IMG/VR virus record: IMGVR_UViG_3300021964_000268
Location: 1 to 33,310 of that record
DNA from: a virus
DNA: 33,310 nt
Strand: one strand, 5' to 3'
The notes under the pieces are model-generated. The model saw only the letters and a list, made by a program, of their open reading frames with translations. It had not been told where the DNA came from and ran no database searches. Positions 1,592-22,914 of the stretch are shown piece after piece (the first letter of the stretch is position 1; every line of letters starts with the position of its first letter). The position numbers and the translations under genes are program-made.

Positions 1592-4051
1592 ATGCCATCA
1601 AGTCCAATCCCAGAAGGCCCAGGCCCACTTATTAACCCTGGCTGGGATCTTAACAACGAAAGCTTTGACAATGCTGGAGATTGGGCTAATTACATTTCGG
1701 ATCTTCTTGCGGAGTTGCTTGGTAGTTTTTATGAAACAGGCCAAGACACTGACGACATTGATCGCATATACCGCCAAGAAGAAGCTCAAGCATGGATGGA
1801 TTTGCTTGACGAGATTGCCAATGGCAATGCTGGGATTGACGAATTAAACAATTTTGATGATGAATTTTTGTCTGACATTCCAGAGTGGAATGAGTATGAG
1901 CAATCAGTAAAAGACTCATATATTGCTGAGTCGGAAGCTAAAGAAGACGCAGAAACCGAGCCAGAAGAAAAAGAAAAAGATGCGGAAATAACTGATAAGG
2001 AAGATACCGAGTCCGAGGAAAAAGAAAAGGACGCGGAAGTTATTACTAAAGATGCAGAGTCTGAAGAAAAAGAAAAAGACGATGCTGAGGCTCAAGAAAA
2101 AGAAGACGCTGAAGTTGCTGAAAAAGAAGATGCAGAGATAGCAGAAAAAGAAGATGCGGAAATAGCAGACAAGGAAGACGCTGAGGCTCAGGAAAAGGAA
2201 GACGCTGAAGCGCAGGAAAAAGAAGATGCTGAGGTTTTAGATAAGGAAGACGCGGAAGTCACACAAAAAGAAGAAGAAGCTGAGAATAGGTTTAAAGAAA
2301 CCGAAAATGCGGCTAAAGAAGAGGCCGAGCAAAAAGAAAAAGAAGAGACTGAGAGTACAGAAAAGGAAGCTGAAGGCGAAGACAAGGACAAAGAAGCCGA
2401 AAAAGAAAAAGACTCCGAGGAAGAAGGTAAAGACAAAGAATCTGAGGCCGAAAAAGATAAAGAGTCTGAGGAAGAGGGTAAAGACAAAGAAGCCGAAACT
2501 GAAAAGGATTCTGAGGCAGAGGAAAAAGACAAGGAAGCTGAAACCGAAAAAGATTCAGAAGCAGAAACCAAGGACAAAGAAGATACGGAGGCTCAGGAAA
2601 AAGAGTCTGAAGGTCAGGAAAAAGAAACCGAAGGCGAGGAAAAGGATAAAGAAGCCGAAGCAGAAAAAGACAAGGATTCTGAGGCTCAGGAAAAGGAAGC
2701 TGAGAATCAAGAAAAGGATGCCGAGTCTGAGGAAAAAGACAAAGAAGAAGCTGAGATAGGCGAAAAAGAAGCCGAAGAAGAAGGCAAGGATAAGGAGGCT
2801 GACGAGCAGGCTGAAAAGGACAAGGATGCCGAAGCCGATAAAGATGCCGAGTCCGAAGAAAAAGACAAAGAAGCCGAAACACAAATCAAGGAAGAAGAGT
2901 CAGAGGATACTGGCAAGGAAACTGAAACACAAAACAAAGAACAAACCGAGCAGGAAAACAAAGAGGCTGAGGGGCAGGAAAAAGAAGAAGACGAGCAGGC
3001 CGAAAAAGACAAGGACTTTGAGGAAGCCGAAAAAGAAAAGGATGACGAAGAAAGCGAAACCAAAGATAAAGAAGCTACAGAGAGCATTCAGGATGCGGCT
3101 GGCATTAACAAGGAAGGTGAAAACGATACCACCGCTAGCACTGTGGACGGAAAGGAAGGCGAAACCGAAGAGCAAGATCCTGACACTAAGGACGGAGAAA
3201 CTGAAGAGCAGGACCCAGATACAAAGGATGGCGAGACTCAGGAAGAAGAGGAGGCTAATCCTACTAAGGATGCTGAGGGCTGGTGGCAAGTTATTATTGG
3301 CAACAAAGACAATGATGATGAAGGCGAAGGCCAAGTAGATATTTGGAACAATCCAACAAAAGATGCAGAGGGTTGGTGGGATACGCTAATCGGCAATAAG
3401 GAGGGCGAAGAAACTGAGAAAGAGCCTGAAGCCGACGAAAAAGAAGAGGAAGACCCTGAAAAGGATGATGACCCAGAAAATGCGGAAAAAGAAGGGGAAA
3501 CCGAAGAAGAGGCATTAGCCAATCCAACCAAAGATGGTGAAACAGTAGATGAAATTATCAATGGCAAGGATGACGATGGCGGCGATCCAGAGGATGCGGA
3601 AAAGGAAGGCGAGACAGAAGAAGAAGCGTTATTAAACCCAACCAAGGATGCTGAGCTTGTTGAGGATCTTATCGACAATAAAGACGGTGAGTTTGATGAT
3701 GCAGACACAGACACCAAGGATGGGGAAACTCAGGAAGAAATTTTTAACAAAGATGGCGAGCAAGTAGAAGAAATTGCTGGAAACAAGGAGGGAGAAGATA
3801 CCAGCAAGGAAGGCGGAGAATCTGACGTTCTTAACCTGTTTAAAGGCATTGGTCTTGCTGGTGGATCTGGCGGCATAGATGTGGAGTTTACTCCCTTCCG
3901 GTCTGGGATTACTTGGAAGGATCCACAGGTTCCTGACGTTCAACTGCCGCAAGAAGACTATGTTAAGAATCTTCAGTCTTCTATGTTTTTTGGCGGGGCT
4001 AGCAGTGCCCTAGACGGGCTTTTGCAACGAAACAGCAAAAAGAAGGGTTAA
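1592..4051 (+). CDS. Large acidic repeat protein, probable virion protein
   Basis: An 819-residue protein with three parts. Residues 1 to about 117 are ordinary sequence with aromatics (NPGWDLN, WMDLLDEI). Residues about 117-743 are a low-complexity region dominated by E, K, D and A with very few aromatics; it holds seven perfect-length 8-residue units of the form [E/D]KEDAExx (residues 169-224) and, further on, four NPTKDxE modules (starting at residues 556, 587, 644 and 682). Residues 744-819 are ordinary again, with GIGLAGGSGGIDVEF, QLPQEDYVKNL and FGGASSALDGLLQ. The K(i)-E(i+4) spacing could favour a long single alpha-helix, or the region may be disordered. It lies between the holin and the tail adaptor, so a virion role is inferred. 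I do not recognise a characterised homologue. Confidence 0.8.
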   Translation: MPSSPIPEGPGPLINPGWDLNNESFDNAGDWANYISDLLAELLGSFYETGQDTDDIDRIYRQEEAQAWMDLLDEIANGNAGIDELNNFDDEFLSDIPEWNEYEQSVKDSYIAESEAKEDAETEPEEKEKDAEITDKEDTESEEKEKDAEVITKDAESEEKEKDDAEAQEKEDAEVAEKEDAEIAEKEDAEIADKEDAEAQEKEDAEAQEKEDAEVLDKEDAEVTQKEEEAENRFKETENAAKEEAEQKEKEETESTEKEAEGEDKDKEAEKEKDSEEEGKDKESEAEKDKESEEEGKDKEAETEKDSEAEEKDKEAETEKDSEAETKDKEDTEAQEKESEGQEKETEGEEKDKEAEAEKDKDSEAQEKEAENQEKDAESEEKDKEEAEIGEKEAEEEGKDKEADEQAEKDKDAEADKDAESEEKDKEAETQIKEEESEDTGKETETQNKEQTEQENKEAEGQEKEEDEQAEKDKDFEEAEKEKDDEESETKDKEATESIQDAAGINKEGENDTTASTVDGKEGETEEQDPDTKDGETEEQDPDTKDGETQEEEEANPTKDAEGWWQVIIGNKDNDDEGEGQVDIWNNPTKDAEGWWDTLIGNKEGEETEKEPEADEKEEEDPEKDDDPENAEKEGETEEEALANPTKDGETVDEIINGKDDDGGDPEDAEKEGETEEEALLNPTKDAELVEDLIDNKDGEFDDADTDTKDGETQEEIFNKDGEQVEEIAGNKEGEDTSKEGGESDVLNLFKGIGLAGGSGGIDVEFTPFRSGITWKDPQVPDVQLPQEDYVKNLQSSMFFGGASSALDGLLQRNSKKKG
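2096..2263 (+). repeat. Seven tandem 24-bp coding repeats in the acidic protein
   Basis: Units start at 2096, 2120, 2144, 2168, 2192, 2216 and 2240 and encode [E/D]KEDAE followed by two variable residues (VA, IA, IA, AQ, AQ, VL, VT). The spacing is exact while synonymous codons vary (GAA/GAG, GAC/GAT, AAA/AAG), so the protein pattern is kept better than the DNA. The eighth unit degenerates into QKEEEAE. Confidence 0.85.
3257..3691 (+). repeat. Four NPTKD modules in the acidic protein
   Basis: Modules begin at 3257, 3350, 3521 and 3635. The first two read NPTKDAEGWW followed by an I/L-I-G-N-K segment; the third and fourth keep NPTKD and the closing N-(G)-K-D but have lost the two tryptophans. 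Between the modules lie acidic spacers of unequal length with DTKDGETxEE motifs. They look like short folded beads in a charged chain. Confidence 0.75.
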
Positions 4052-21014: not shown

Positions 21015-21220
21015 CGCATTTCTCCGTAGTCAGCGATTAATTGACCAAGCTCAGATAGCTCGAGGTCTTTTGCAGGTGCGTAACCATAAGCGCTCATCGA
21101 CTCACAAATATCCTGCAAGTAAATAGGATGTAGCCCTTCGTCCAATCGGTCATGGAATCGCACCTCACACAGATGAATACCAGTGTGATCTACAATTCGA
21201 TATGTATTTTCAACATTCAT
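21011..21220 (-). CDS. Hypothetical protein
   Basis: A 69-residue protein, MNVENTYRIVDHTGIHLCEVRF, ending acidic and helical (LELSELGQLIADYGEMR). AAGGAG precedes its ATG, and a TCAATCAATTG motif stands just upstream of that. ATGA overlap with the next gene. No family recognised. Confidence 0.65.
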   Translation of the reverse strand: MNVENTYRIVDHTGIHLCEVRFHDRLDEGLHPIYLQDICESMSAYGYAPAKDLELSELGQLIADYGEMR

Positions 21221-21247
21221 AACAACTCCTTATTAACAATTGATTGA

Positions 21248-21332
21248 GCGGATGCTTTGAGGCATCACACGCGCGCGACCACCCGCGCTGTCCAGCGGGT
21301 ATAATGTCGCGCCGTGGGATCAAAGCGTCCGC
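21248..21332. other. 85-nt nested hairpin (candidate structured RNA)
   Basis: Three stacked helices: GCGGATGCTTTGA (21248-21260) with TCAAAGCGTCCGC (21320-21332), 13 pairs with one T/G position; GCGCGAC (21273-21279) with GTCGCGC (21306-21312); ACCCGC (21281-21286) with GCGGGT (21295-21300). It fills the gap between two - strand genes. The one imperfect pair is a U-G wobble in + strand RNA and an A-C mismatch in - strand RNA. No T-run follows on either side. Confidence 0.65.
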
Positions 21333-21333
21333 G

Positions 21334-21510
21334 TTACTTTTCAAACGGGTCCCAGATAAGTGCCGCTACCATCGTCATTGCCAGGACAAACATCCCAGCG
21401 CCATACCAGACGTCACGCGGGTCCATCGTCACTAGACCGTTCACTGCACAAACAAACCCACCGACTAAATAGATGGGAAACAACAGCTTAAACATCGTTG
21501 ACCACTGCAT
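21334..21510 (-). CDS. 58-residue protein with two membrane helices
   Basis: A gene shorter than usual cut-offs: MQWSTMFKLLFPIYLVGGFV and on to AALIWDPFEK, with CAAGGAG eight bases before ATG. Residues 7-27 and 37-54 are hydrophobic helices joined by TMDPRDVWYG. Such tiny inner-membrane proteins of the early region may be superinfection-exclusion or membrane-stress proteins, but this is only a guess. It follows a terminator and precedes the 85-nt hairpin. Confidence 0.75.
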   Translation of the reverse strand: MQWSTMFKLLFPIYLVGGFVCAVNGLVTMDPRDVWYGAGMFVLAMTMVAALIWDPFEK

Positions 21511-21531
21511 GTCTTTACTCCTTGTGGGAAG

Positions 21532-21553
21532 AAAAAAGGGACCCGAAGGCCCC
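21532..21553 (-). terminator. Intrinsic terminator with TTCG loop
   Basis: On the - strand GGGGCC (21553-21548), loop TTCG, GGTCCC (21543-21538) and six T (21537-21532). The stem contains one G-T pair. It ends the transcript of the 106-residue gene, so the genes below need readthrough or another promoter. Confidence 0.8.
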
Positions 21554-21560
21554 TTGGGGA

Positions 21561-21881
21561 TTAAGCTACCTTGCGGCGATTGTTGGAGGGAACTGCCTTC
21601 TCCGTGTGGTCAGGCTTCTCAGCTAACTCGTCACGAAGCTCAGGCTTCTCTGATTGGTTGCGAAGATACTCAAGCCGTGCCTCGGCCTGTGCGATCTGTG
21701 CTGAGACTAGATCCTCGACCTTGAGCCAAGCCATGTCTTTGCCGGACTTAGACTTCGTAATACCAAGTACTACTTTGATTCGCTGGCCGTTAAGATTTGC
21801 CTCACCTTCGTAGTAAACATTACCCGCTTTGCTAGTTTTGGGAAAAGCGAGTCCAGAGCCGATTTCAAGATTCAGTGCCAT
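21561..21881 (-). CDS. Hypothetical protein, first gene of the leftward cluster
   Basis: A 106-residue protein with AGGAGG upstream. Residues 1-52 form a beta-rich domain (YYEGEANLNGQRIKVVLGI, then KSKSGKDMAWLKVE); residues 53-106 are a charged helix plus a basic tail (NNRRKVA). It looks like a small nucleic-acid-binding fold with a flexible arm. As first gene after the structured control region and followed by a terminator, it is probably made at a higher level than the rest. No family recognised. Confidence 0.65.
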   Translation of the reverse strand: MALNLEIGSGLAFPKTSKAGNVYYEGEANLNGQRIKVVLGITKSKSGKDMAWLKVEDLVSAQIAQAEARLEYLRNQSEKPELRDELAEKPDHTEKAVPSNNRRKVA

Positions 21882-21932
21882 GATGGCCTCCTAGATTGAT
21901 TGATTGAACCAGTGTCGTTGCCGACATGAGCA

Positions 21933-22146
21933 GAACTCCACTGGCTGTGCCGGATTACAAGGGGAGAAGTTGAGCGTGAATCACTGAGGGTCCGCGGTTG
22001 AGGGCGAGCCTTTCCGCGCCAGCGGAAAAAATAGCCGCCCGATTGTGAGGGGGAGCTTTTCCGCTTCAGCGGAAAAATAAGCGCCCCGAACGCGTGGAAA
22101 CCGTTATTCTCGCGGCCCCTTGTAATACGGTGCAGACTGTGGATTC
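21933..22146. promoter_or_regulatory. Structured control region: long inverted repeat around two hairpins
   Basis: Left arm 21933-21964 and right arm 22116-22146 are inverted copies. The most conserved core is CCGGATTACAAGGGG (left) versus CCGTATTACAAGGGG (right, - strand). Over the whole arm only three mismatches, two wobble-compatible changes and one bulge are seen. Between the arms are two direct copies of a 35-base hairpin unit. The region lies between the leftward early cluster (21881) and the rightward late operon (22732). It could be a structured transcript, an origin, or a divergent operator. Confidence 0.6.
22006..22087. repeat. Two direct copies of a 35-base hairpin unit
   Basis: Units 22006-22040 and 22053-22087 start 47 bases apart. 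Each has an upper stem (TTTCCGC/GCGGAAA, and TTTTCCGC/GCGGAAAA), a tetraloop (GCCA, TTCA), an A-rich bulge on the 3' side (AAATA, ATAA) and a lower GC stem. The lower stem differs in sequence between copies (GGGCG with CGCCC; GGGG with CCCC) but stays paired. Confidence 0.7.
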
Positions 22147-22690
22147 GTCGCGGTTGTCAGGCTACGACGGGTACTGGTTCTAGCAAGCAGTCTAGGGGGT
22201 CAGCAGGGTGCTGGAGCTTGGGATTGGTGGCGGGCTTGATTTTGCCAAGACTAGCTGGGCACCCAACTCTAGACGAAGGTGAGGTGGATCTTAGCGGCTG
22301 GTGGAGCTTACCCCAATCCCAGATAAGTTCGGCAAAGGCGTGGCTTGGTGATGGTTGATTCTACTCTCTGTCAATTGGATAGGAATAGATAGCTATATGG
22401 TCCCACCCAGACTCTCACACTCGCCCATTCATGGCACCTCTAGCGGCTACTCCTCTCTCTATCGAATCTATCGGCTTATCAGACTAAAACATGGAACAAT
22501 TCAACAGGGGGGAGGGGGAATCTGCGTTGTTTATATATAGTAGTTGCCACCCAGATACAAAAAAGAGTGAAATTAGAAAAGAGGAAAGCCTTGCAATTAC
22601 TATCTAAACGGCCCATTCTGTTATGCGAATAAGTAATACCGGAAAGAGGATTTGTATTTCCATAGATTTATCTATAGGATAGGGGGGGTA
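22147..22690. other. Non-coding region with several dyads
   Basis: About 540 bases without a credible gene. Visible pairs on the + strand: CGTCG (22146-22150) with CGACG (22165-22169); AGACTG (22134-22139) with CAGTCT (22188-22193), which competes with the right arm of the preceding inverted repeat; CAGCA/TGCTG (22201-22213, 3-base loop); CTAG-flanked hairpin at 22251-22272; TGGGATTGG (22219-22227) with CCAATCCCA (22313-22321). TGGAGCTT occurs twice (22212 and 22302). From about 22330 on I see no further strong structure until the promoter-like region near 22652. Confidence 0.5.
22652..22680 (+). promoter_or_regulatory. Candidate late promoter with palindromic operator
   Basis: TTGTAT (22652-22657), 17 bases, TAGGAT (22675-22680), 52 bases before the first late gene. 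The spacer holds the palindrome ATAGATTTATCTAT (22662-22675), reaching into the -10. A dyad in the spacer is a common operator position. Box matches are moderate. Confidence 0.35.
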
Positions 22691-22693
22691 TGG

Positions 22694-22719
22694 CGGGCTT
22701 AGTGGCCCGTTTCACTTTT
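22694..22719 (+). promoter_or_regulatory. Leader hairpin before the late operon
   Basis: CGGGC (22694-22698), loop TTAGTG, GCCCG (22705-22709), then a T-rich TTTCACTTTT directly before the AAGGAG ribosome site. It looks like a weak terminator or attenuator in the 5' leader; the T-run is interrupted, so strength is uncertain. Confidence 0.4.
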
Positions 22720-22731
22720 AAGGAGTCCAAA

Positions 22732-22914
22732 ATGGAAAAGAAACCAGACCACACAGTTGAGTATACGTCCATTGATTACCACTCAATGTGCGAGAAATCC
22801 AAAAGGCGCGTAAAAGAGATGCAACAACAGGGCATCCCAACGATGCACGACTCTAAATCCAGCCCTGATGAAATAGGGCAGATGCCTAGTTATTCGATTG
22901 TGATGATGGGCTAA
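22732..22914 (+). CDS. Hypothetical protein, first late gene
   Basis: A 60-residue protein, MEKKPDHTVEYTSIDYHSMCEKS; start chosen for AAGGAG seven bases upstream (a longer reading from 22690 has none). Charged and helical, ending PSYSIVMMG. It is two bases before TerS and probably co-expressed with the packaging genes. No motif recognised. Confidence 0.65.
   Translation: MEKKPDHTVEYTSIDYHSMCEKSKRRVKEMQQQGIPTMHDSKSSPDEIGQMPSYSIVMMG

Follow-up and report, generated by a model that had tools for sequence, protein, structure and literature searches.

Genes and features of the locus

The window analyzed here is the whole of IMG/VR record IMGVR_UViG_3300021964_000268 (33,310 bases, positions 1 to 33,310), which carries genes of a tailed phage, among them those for a terminase, a portal protein, a major head protein, and an Erf annealing protein. 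Its structural block also encodes, at 1592-4051 (+), an 819-aa protein made up mostly of degenerate acidic and lysine-rich repeats (KEDAE/EKDKEAE). The element described below lies between a leftward gene, whose block also contains an ArdC-type antirestriction gene, and a rightward block whose first ORFs are a small one and a small-terminase-like one. The features of the locus are as follows.

21536-21555, - strand: intrinsic terminator directly 3' of the leftward gene, kept in the relatives examined
21561-21881, - strand: leftward gene, encoding 106 aa; homologues in relatives match phage single-strand-DNA-binding families (phrog_18154/phrog_7364)
21708-21953, + strand: left arm, from the fold of 21700-22365 and an unbiased arm alignment
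21954-21964, + strand: 5' side of stem P1 (ATTACAAGGGG), pairing with 22116-22126
21965-21973, + strand: conserved asymmetric internal loop AGAAGTTGA (GGAAGTTGA in most relatives), from the alignment
21974-21992, + strand: 5' side of P2/P3 in the core (GCG-U-GAAU-CACUG-AGGGUC), pairing with 22096-22113
21993-22095, + strand: exchangeable tip, 103 nt in the window and 12, 21, 38, 57, 63, or about 103 nt in relatives
22002-22040, + strand: tip hairpin 1 (GGGCG ... TTTCCGC-GCCA-GCGGAAA, A-rich 3' bulge, CGCCC)
22050-22087, + strand: tip hairpin 2 (GGGG ... TTTCCGC-TTCA-GCGGAAA, A-rich 3' bulge, CCCC)
22096-22126, + strand: conserved 3' side of the core (GGAAACCGTTATTCTCGCGGCCCCTTGTAAT)
22127-22363, + strand: right arm, which repeats the leader and 5' coding part of the leftward gene in inverted, degenerate form

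For the window's own leftward protein, we obtained no direct family match. A structural model of it, predicted with modest confidence (pLDDT 68), shows a weak resemblance to Pur-alpha and a weaker one still to PC4. The leftward proteins are homologous across lineages, with 33-61% identity to that of the window outside its own group. The leader of the gene holds a small conserved hairpin (TGTCG-GCAA/GAAA-CGACA; window 21912-21928, - strand), which is present in most lineages, carries a GNRA tetraloop on the - strand, and is perhaps a 5' mRNA stabilizer or an operator. Ahead of the rightward block, at 22500-22740, we noticed conserved G runs (GGGGGGAGGGGG and ATAGGATAGGGGGGGT) and a TATATATAG stretch, a possible late promoter or packaging signal.

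A giant hairpin on the + strand

We found that + strand positions 21708-22363 fold as a single hairpin of about 655 nt, with a predicted energy of -348 kcal/mol versus -233 ± 5 for shuffled sequences (z, -22.5), compared to -255 for the - strand (z, -7). A sequence-only reading had described the inner part, 21933-22146, as a closed multi-branch RNA of 214 nt with inverted arms of about 31 bases and had suggested selection on a + strand transcript. That inner part does fold far better than shuffles (-105.4 and z of -6.2 on the + strand; -89.5 and z of -5.3 on the - strand), and 21933-21964 pairs with 22116-22146 as described. However, both the fold and the arm alignment extend the arms to about 250-260 bases (left, 21708-21964; right, 22116-22363), into the leftward coding sequence, and the actual unit is a rod of 0.28 to 0.96 kb whose core lies close to the apex and whose tip is exchangeable. 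The + strand preference was borne out and proved far stronger than could be seen in 214 nt, as judged from the z scores of the whole hairpin and from the wobble counts given below.

The inverted repeat is the strongest in the window (alignment score of 125, the next best being 41), and uninterrupted helices in its rod reach 33 bp. Within the left arm, 21708-21881 is antisense to the 5' half of the leftward gene and 21882-21953 to its leader; the right arm is richer in G and T at sites occupied by A and C in the gene. A general strand skew was rejected as the source of this enrichment, the G/T values for the window being 0.59 in the arm and 0.50 to the right of it. We also rejected the right arm as a second gene, since it has no conserved start or frame.

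With DNA energy parameters, the + strand was again favored (z of -16, versus -5.6 for the - strand), so that sequence alone cannot separate an RNA from a single-stranded DNA; the tolerance of wobble-type changes described below would suit the latter as well. We found neither a sigma-70-like promoter across 21200-22800 nor a terminator on the + strand where the element ends on the right; the ends of a giant-hairpin RNA are thus guesses.

A nearly invariant core and an exchangeable tip

From the outside in, the element consists of the rod, stem P1, a 9-nt asymmetric loop (GGAAGUUGA), P2/P3, an internal loop (AGGG/AA), and the tip. The core, positioned near the apex, is nearly invariant in sequence among relatives. 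P1 is GCAAGGG/CCCUUGC in most loci and AUUACAAGGGG/CCCCUUGUAAU in the window, and P2/P3 is GCG-U-GAAU...AUUC-U-CGC, GCGG/CCGY. Core pair 64-82 is G.U, A-U, or G-C depending on the locus. We rejected the core as coding sequence, because the GTG frame of the window stops at TGA after three codons.

The tip takes the form of a triloop stem, an 8-nt loop, an insert of 57 to 63 nt or of 38 nt, or two TTTCCGC hairpins. The latter, seen in the window as TTTCCGC-NNNN-GCGGAAA at 22011-22028 and 22058-22075 (chance expectation, 0), are the two bulged hairpins on which the sequence-only reading had centered. They are real but do not define the element, as most relatives lack them, having a short loop or, in others, another insert in their place, and one relative (L060) carries a single hairpin of the TTTCCGC type just outside P1 instead of in the tip. 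Their proposed shape held in part: the L111 relative, which has different closing stems, prefers the two-hairpin tip, whereas in the free minimum of the window the two near-palindromic hairpins pair together (-57.6 versus -54.1 kcal/mol for two hairpins). The two-hairpin form is therefore plausible. The tip contains no terminator-like site on the + strand and one weak 5-bp site on the - strand (22093-22081).

Distribution of the element and searches for known families

We scanned IMG/VR with the terminase, the leftward protein, and core patterns and found the core in about 28 distinct relatives, with at most one copy of the element per genome. All core loci with enough flank form a long hairpin on the + strand; broken pairing, looked for in about 30 loci, was not seen, the pairing being kept. 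By arm alignment, the element spans 278 to 958 nt, and the arms extend beyond the core by about 120 to 410 nt depending on the lineage. They are short in L106 and L117, not reaching the part of the leftward gene, and in L111 and L060 the right arm covers the whole leftward gene, its stop codon, and its terminator. Contigs L027, L095, L098, L099, L108, and L096 break off no more than about 450 bases from the core, which would fit a hairpin that hampers sequencing or assembly.

The absence of a recognized RNA family, as noted from the sequence alone, was upheld: Rfam 15 (including GOLLD, ROOL, OLE, pRNA, and 6S) gave no match at gathering threshold for the window and eight relatives, and lenient searching of 21650-22700 gave none up to an E value of 5. 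The element was not found in phage records, either by DNA search or by search with the leftward protein of a relative, and terminase matches in these records were all below 60% identity. GTDB genomes yielded no copy; one pattern match, in a Methylobacter MAG (L124), lies within an S1-type ribosomal protein gene, has no surrounding core, and was discarded as due to chance. Likewise set aside were twelve loci elsewhere in viral contigs with the tip-hairpin motif and no core. A covariance search of other terminase relatives revealed no further members, with a model that was built without the tip and that missed or poorly scored versions with the 103-nt tip.

Three sister phages, L021 (700-1250), L034 (4990-5700), and L046 (4400-5000), have a different, unrelated structured RNA at this position. 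It is about 450 nt long and multi-branch, with conserved TCAGATTTCGCCGGTGTGTAGTGAAATCTGA and GTCAAGACAACTCGCG...GGTGTGGTCTTGA, shows 15 double-changed pairs among the three sequences, folds better on the + strand, and has no match in Rfam.

The right arm follows the gene of its own lineage

We then counted the differences between gene and right arm at 22 loci, using an alignment that treats all mismatches alike. Wobble-type differences (G.U in + strand RNA) numbered 480 (A>G, 341; C>T, 139), versus 61 of the A.C type (G>A, 26; T>C, 35), although these 541 differences are not independent events, since the loci are related. Tested singly, all eight lineages leaned toward the wobble type (from 7:0 to 46:5, leader and gene part summed), a lean seen in the leader as well as the gene part. 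Real right arms were also more stable than arms with the same number of changes placed randomly at all six loci compared (z of -1.3 to -4.2). Copying by a diversity-generating retroelement or another retroelement was rejected: RVT_1 is absent from the window and six relatives, and A>G dominates with C>T second, a pattern that tracks + strand pairing and not adenine-specific change to any base.

Compensatory change, which had been suspected from the two tip hairpins, was found in both core and arms beyond all shuffled and slid controls, in line with a conserved secondary structure. In the core, 95% of pairs are paired and 12 of 40 show double changes, a number reached in 0 of 500 shuffles and to be set against 1 to 3 in slid controls. 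The arms of the L112 group have 38 double-changed pairs, versus at most 34 in 200 shuffles and 3 to 13 in slid controls, and the signal is weaker in the group of the window (12, versus a shuffle maximum of 11); these shuffle controls, for core and arms alike, ignore the relatedness of the loci. Inspection of paired columns side by side showed scattered single-pair compensations with unchanged G.U pairs adjacent to them.

Among the long-armed lineages, no gene pairs better with the right arm of another lineage than with its own, near-ties being limited to close relatives. The right arms of different loci have common insertions relative to the gene, which shows that they are orthologous and not freshly recopied. 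L111 and L060 are nearly identical in the inner and outer parts of both arms, yet their middles differ jointly in gene and right arm. Plain compensation, one site at a time, does not account for this joint replacement, which could stem either from recombination acting on the folded stem or from recopying with fast wobble drift afterwards.

Proposed function and alternative explanations

As judged from the patterns of change described above, a + strand nucleic-acid hairpin is under selection, and it is most likely a non-coding RNA. In its more specific form, to which we give an even chance, a + strand non-coding RNA of about 0.65 kb in the window would fold on itself into a giant hairpin with a functional core and a self-sequestering arm. 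Function would reside in the near-apex core, comprising P1, the 9-nt asymmetric loop, P2/P3, and the second internal loop, which probably binds a protein or another RNA; the more distal tip could be swapped freely, and of the long rod nothing but pairing would be required. The 5' part of the RNA, starting near the end of the left arm, would extend in antisense over the single-strand-DNA-binding-like gene, with the right arm serving as an internal partner that folds this antisense stretch back, so that the stretch would neither pair with the mRNA nor be left open. Such self-sequestration would give a stable rod whatever the sequence of the gene, leaving the sequence of the rod free and its length lineage-specific, with the rod always starting at the gene. 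Variation in arm length, including cover of the whole gene in L111 and L060, would be expected if the arm covers the gene overlap.

The best rival is a strand-specific single-stranded DNA element of the Frpo/ssi kind, a promoter that we consider unlikely. The folded + strand, template of the leftward gene, would use the right arm as a stand-in for the non-template strand and would allow transcription of the gene, or the laying of a primer, before second-strand synthesis. Frpo of conjugative plasmids is likewise a large strand-specific hairpin upstream of ssb (PMC11541004), and here the adjoining gene belongs to a single-strand-binding family and shares its block with an ArdC-type gene, an arrangement known from plasmid leading regions. 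What the right arm copies is exactly the leader and gene start, and the strong + strand fold obtained with DNA parameters would suit such an element as well. However, Frpo carries -35 and -10 hexamers in its stem, whereas the phage stem has none (0 promoter-like sites across 21200-22800), and its long conserved core, rich in G+C, bears no likeness to a promoter. Frpo/ssi elements belong to conjugative leading regions that enter as single strands, but the phage hairpin sits amid genes of a tailed phage; tailed phages inject double-stranded DNA, and a single-stranded stage is not known for this one. Arms that run through the gene, and in L111 and L060 through all of it and its terminator, would also be unnecessary for a promoter.

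Slightly less probable is that the arms stay alike mainly through mutation, with template switching at the large quasipalindrome repeatedly copying one arm into the other and only the core, as an RNA or a DNA operator, being selected. Template switching during replication is known to homogenize imperfect inverted repeats (PMC7202029, PMC8604942), the joint exchange of whole blocks in the arm middles of L060 and L111 looks like copying, and arm length varies freely. Yet wobble-type differences outnumber those of the A.C type 8:1, which copying should not bring about, the compensated sites are single and flanked by G.U pairs that were not reset, and the orthology of the right arms speaks against fresh copies.

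An antisense regulator of the leftward gene appears improbable. Its long double-stranded RNA would be cut by RNase III and expression lowered late in infection, in keeping with a left arm that is antisense throughout to the gene's leader and 5' coding part, but most of this arm is paired in cis in long helices, which makes it poorly available to the mRNA. A plain divergent promoter/operator region, in which one copy of an inverted duplication of the gene start decays without any RNA function, is very improbable and largely refuted by the wobble counts, the double changes in the arms, and the pairing with the own gene: the right arm does hold degenerate leader and start-codon sequence, and the short dyad TGTCGTTGCCGACA could be an operator, but neutral decay gives neither a + strand wobble excess nor compensation, and each right arm fits the gene of its own lineage far better than those of others.

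Comparison with known hairpins and structured RNAs

Both GOLLD and ROOL have representatives in phages. Large structured RNAs of phages have precedents (PMC12286853), and the giant hairpin shares with GOLLD, ROOL, and OLE a size of hundreds of nucleotides, a non-coding nature, and a conserved structure. These are ornate multi-branch RNAs, whereas the phage hairpin is an extended rod that has no Rfam match and overlaps and covaries with a coding gene.

Among eukaryotes, hairpin RNAs and young MIRNA loci are born by inverted duplication of a target gene. As in such loci, one arm of the phage hairpin copies a gene, wobble pairs occur, and arm and gene coevolve (for comparison with mismatch-modified hairpins, see PMC9263138). 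It differs from them in belonging to a bacterial virus that has no silencing machinery and in having as one arm the antisense strand of the gene itself and not a distant copy. The cabRNA of staphylococcal phages (PMC10686824) is similar in being a structured phage RNA made near terminase genes.

We did not find an architecture in which one arm is the antisense of a coding gene that the other arm follows, either in Rfam or in the literature searched, and there is a fair chance that the giant hairpin is a class of its own. More tentatively, we propose a class of viral RNA defined by a giant self-complementary transcript, one arm of which would be gene antisense and the other would coevolve with it base by base, the near-apex core being the functional part.

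Significance

Long hairpin RNAs made from an inverted gene copy are known in eukaryotic silencing; a conserved phage hairpin RNA that coevolves with an overlapping coding gene would be new. If the proposed reading is true, one stretch of DNA would specify both a protein and an RNA rod, with the function of the latter residing in the near-apex core. A long inverted repeat could persist in DNA in this manner, as wobble changes keep the RNA pairing while breaking the perfect palindrome. The unrelated large RNA at the same place in sister phages suggests that the locus needs a large RNA, and with two unrelated large RNAs at one locus, the role of such phage RNAs becomes directly testable.
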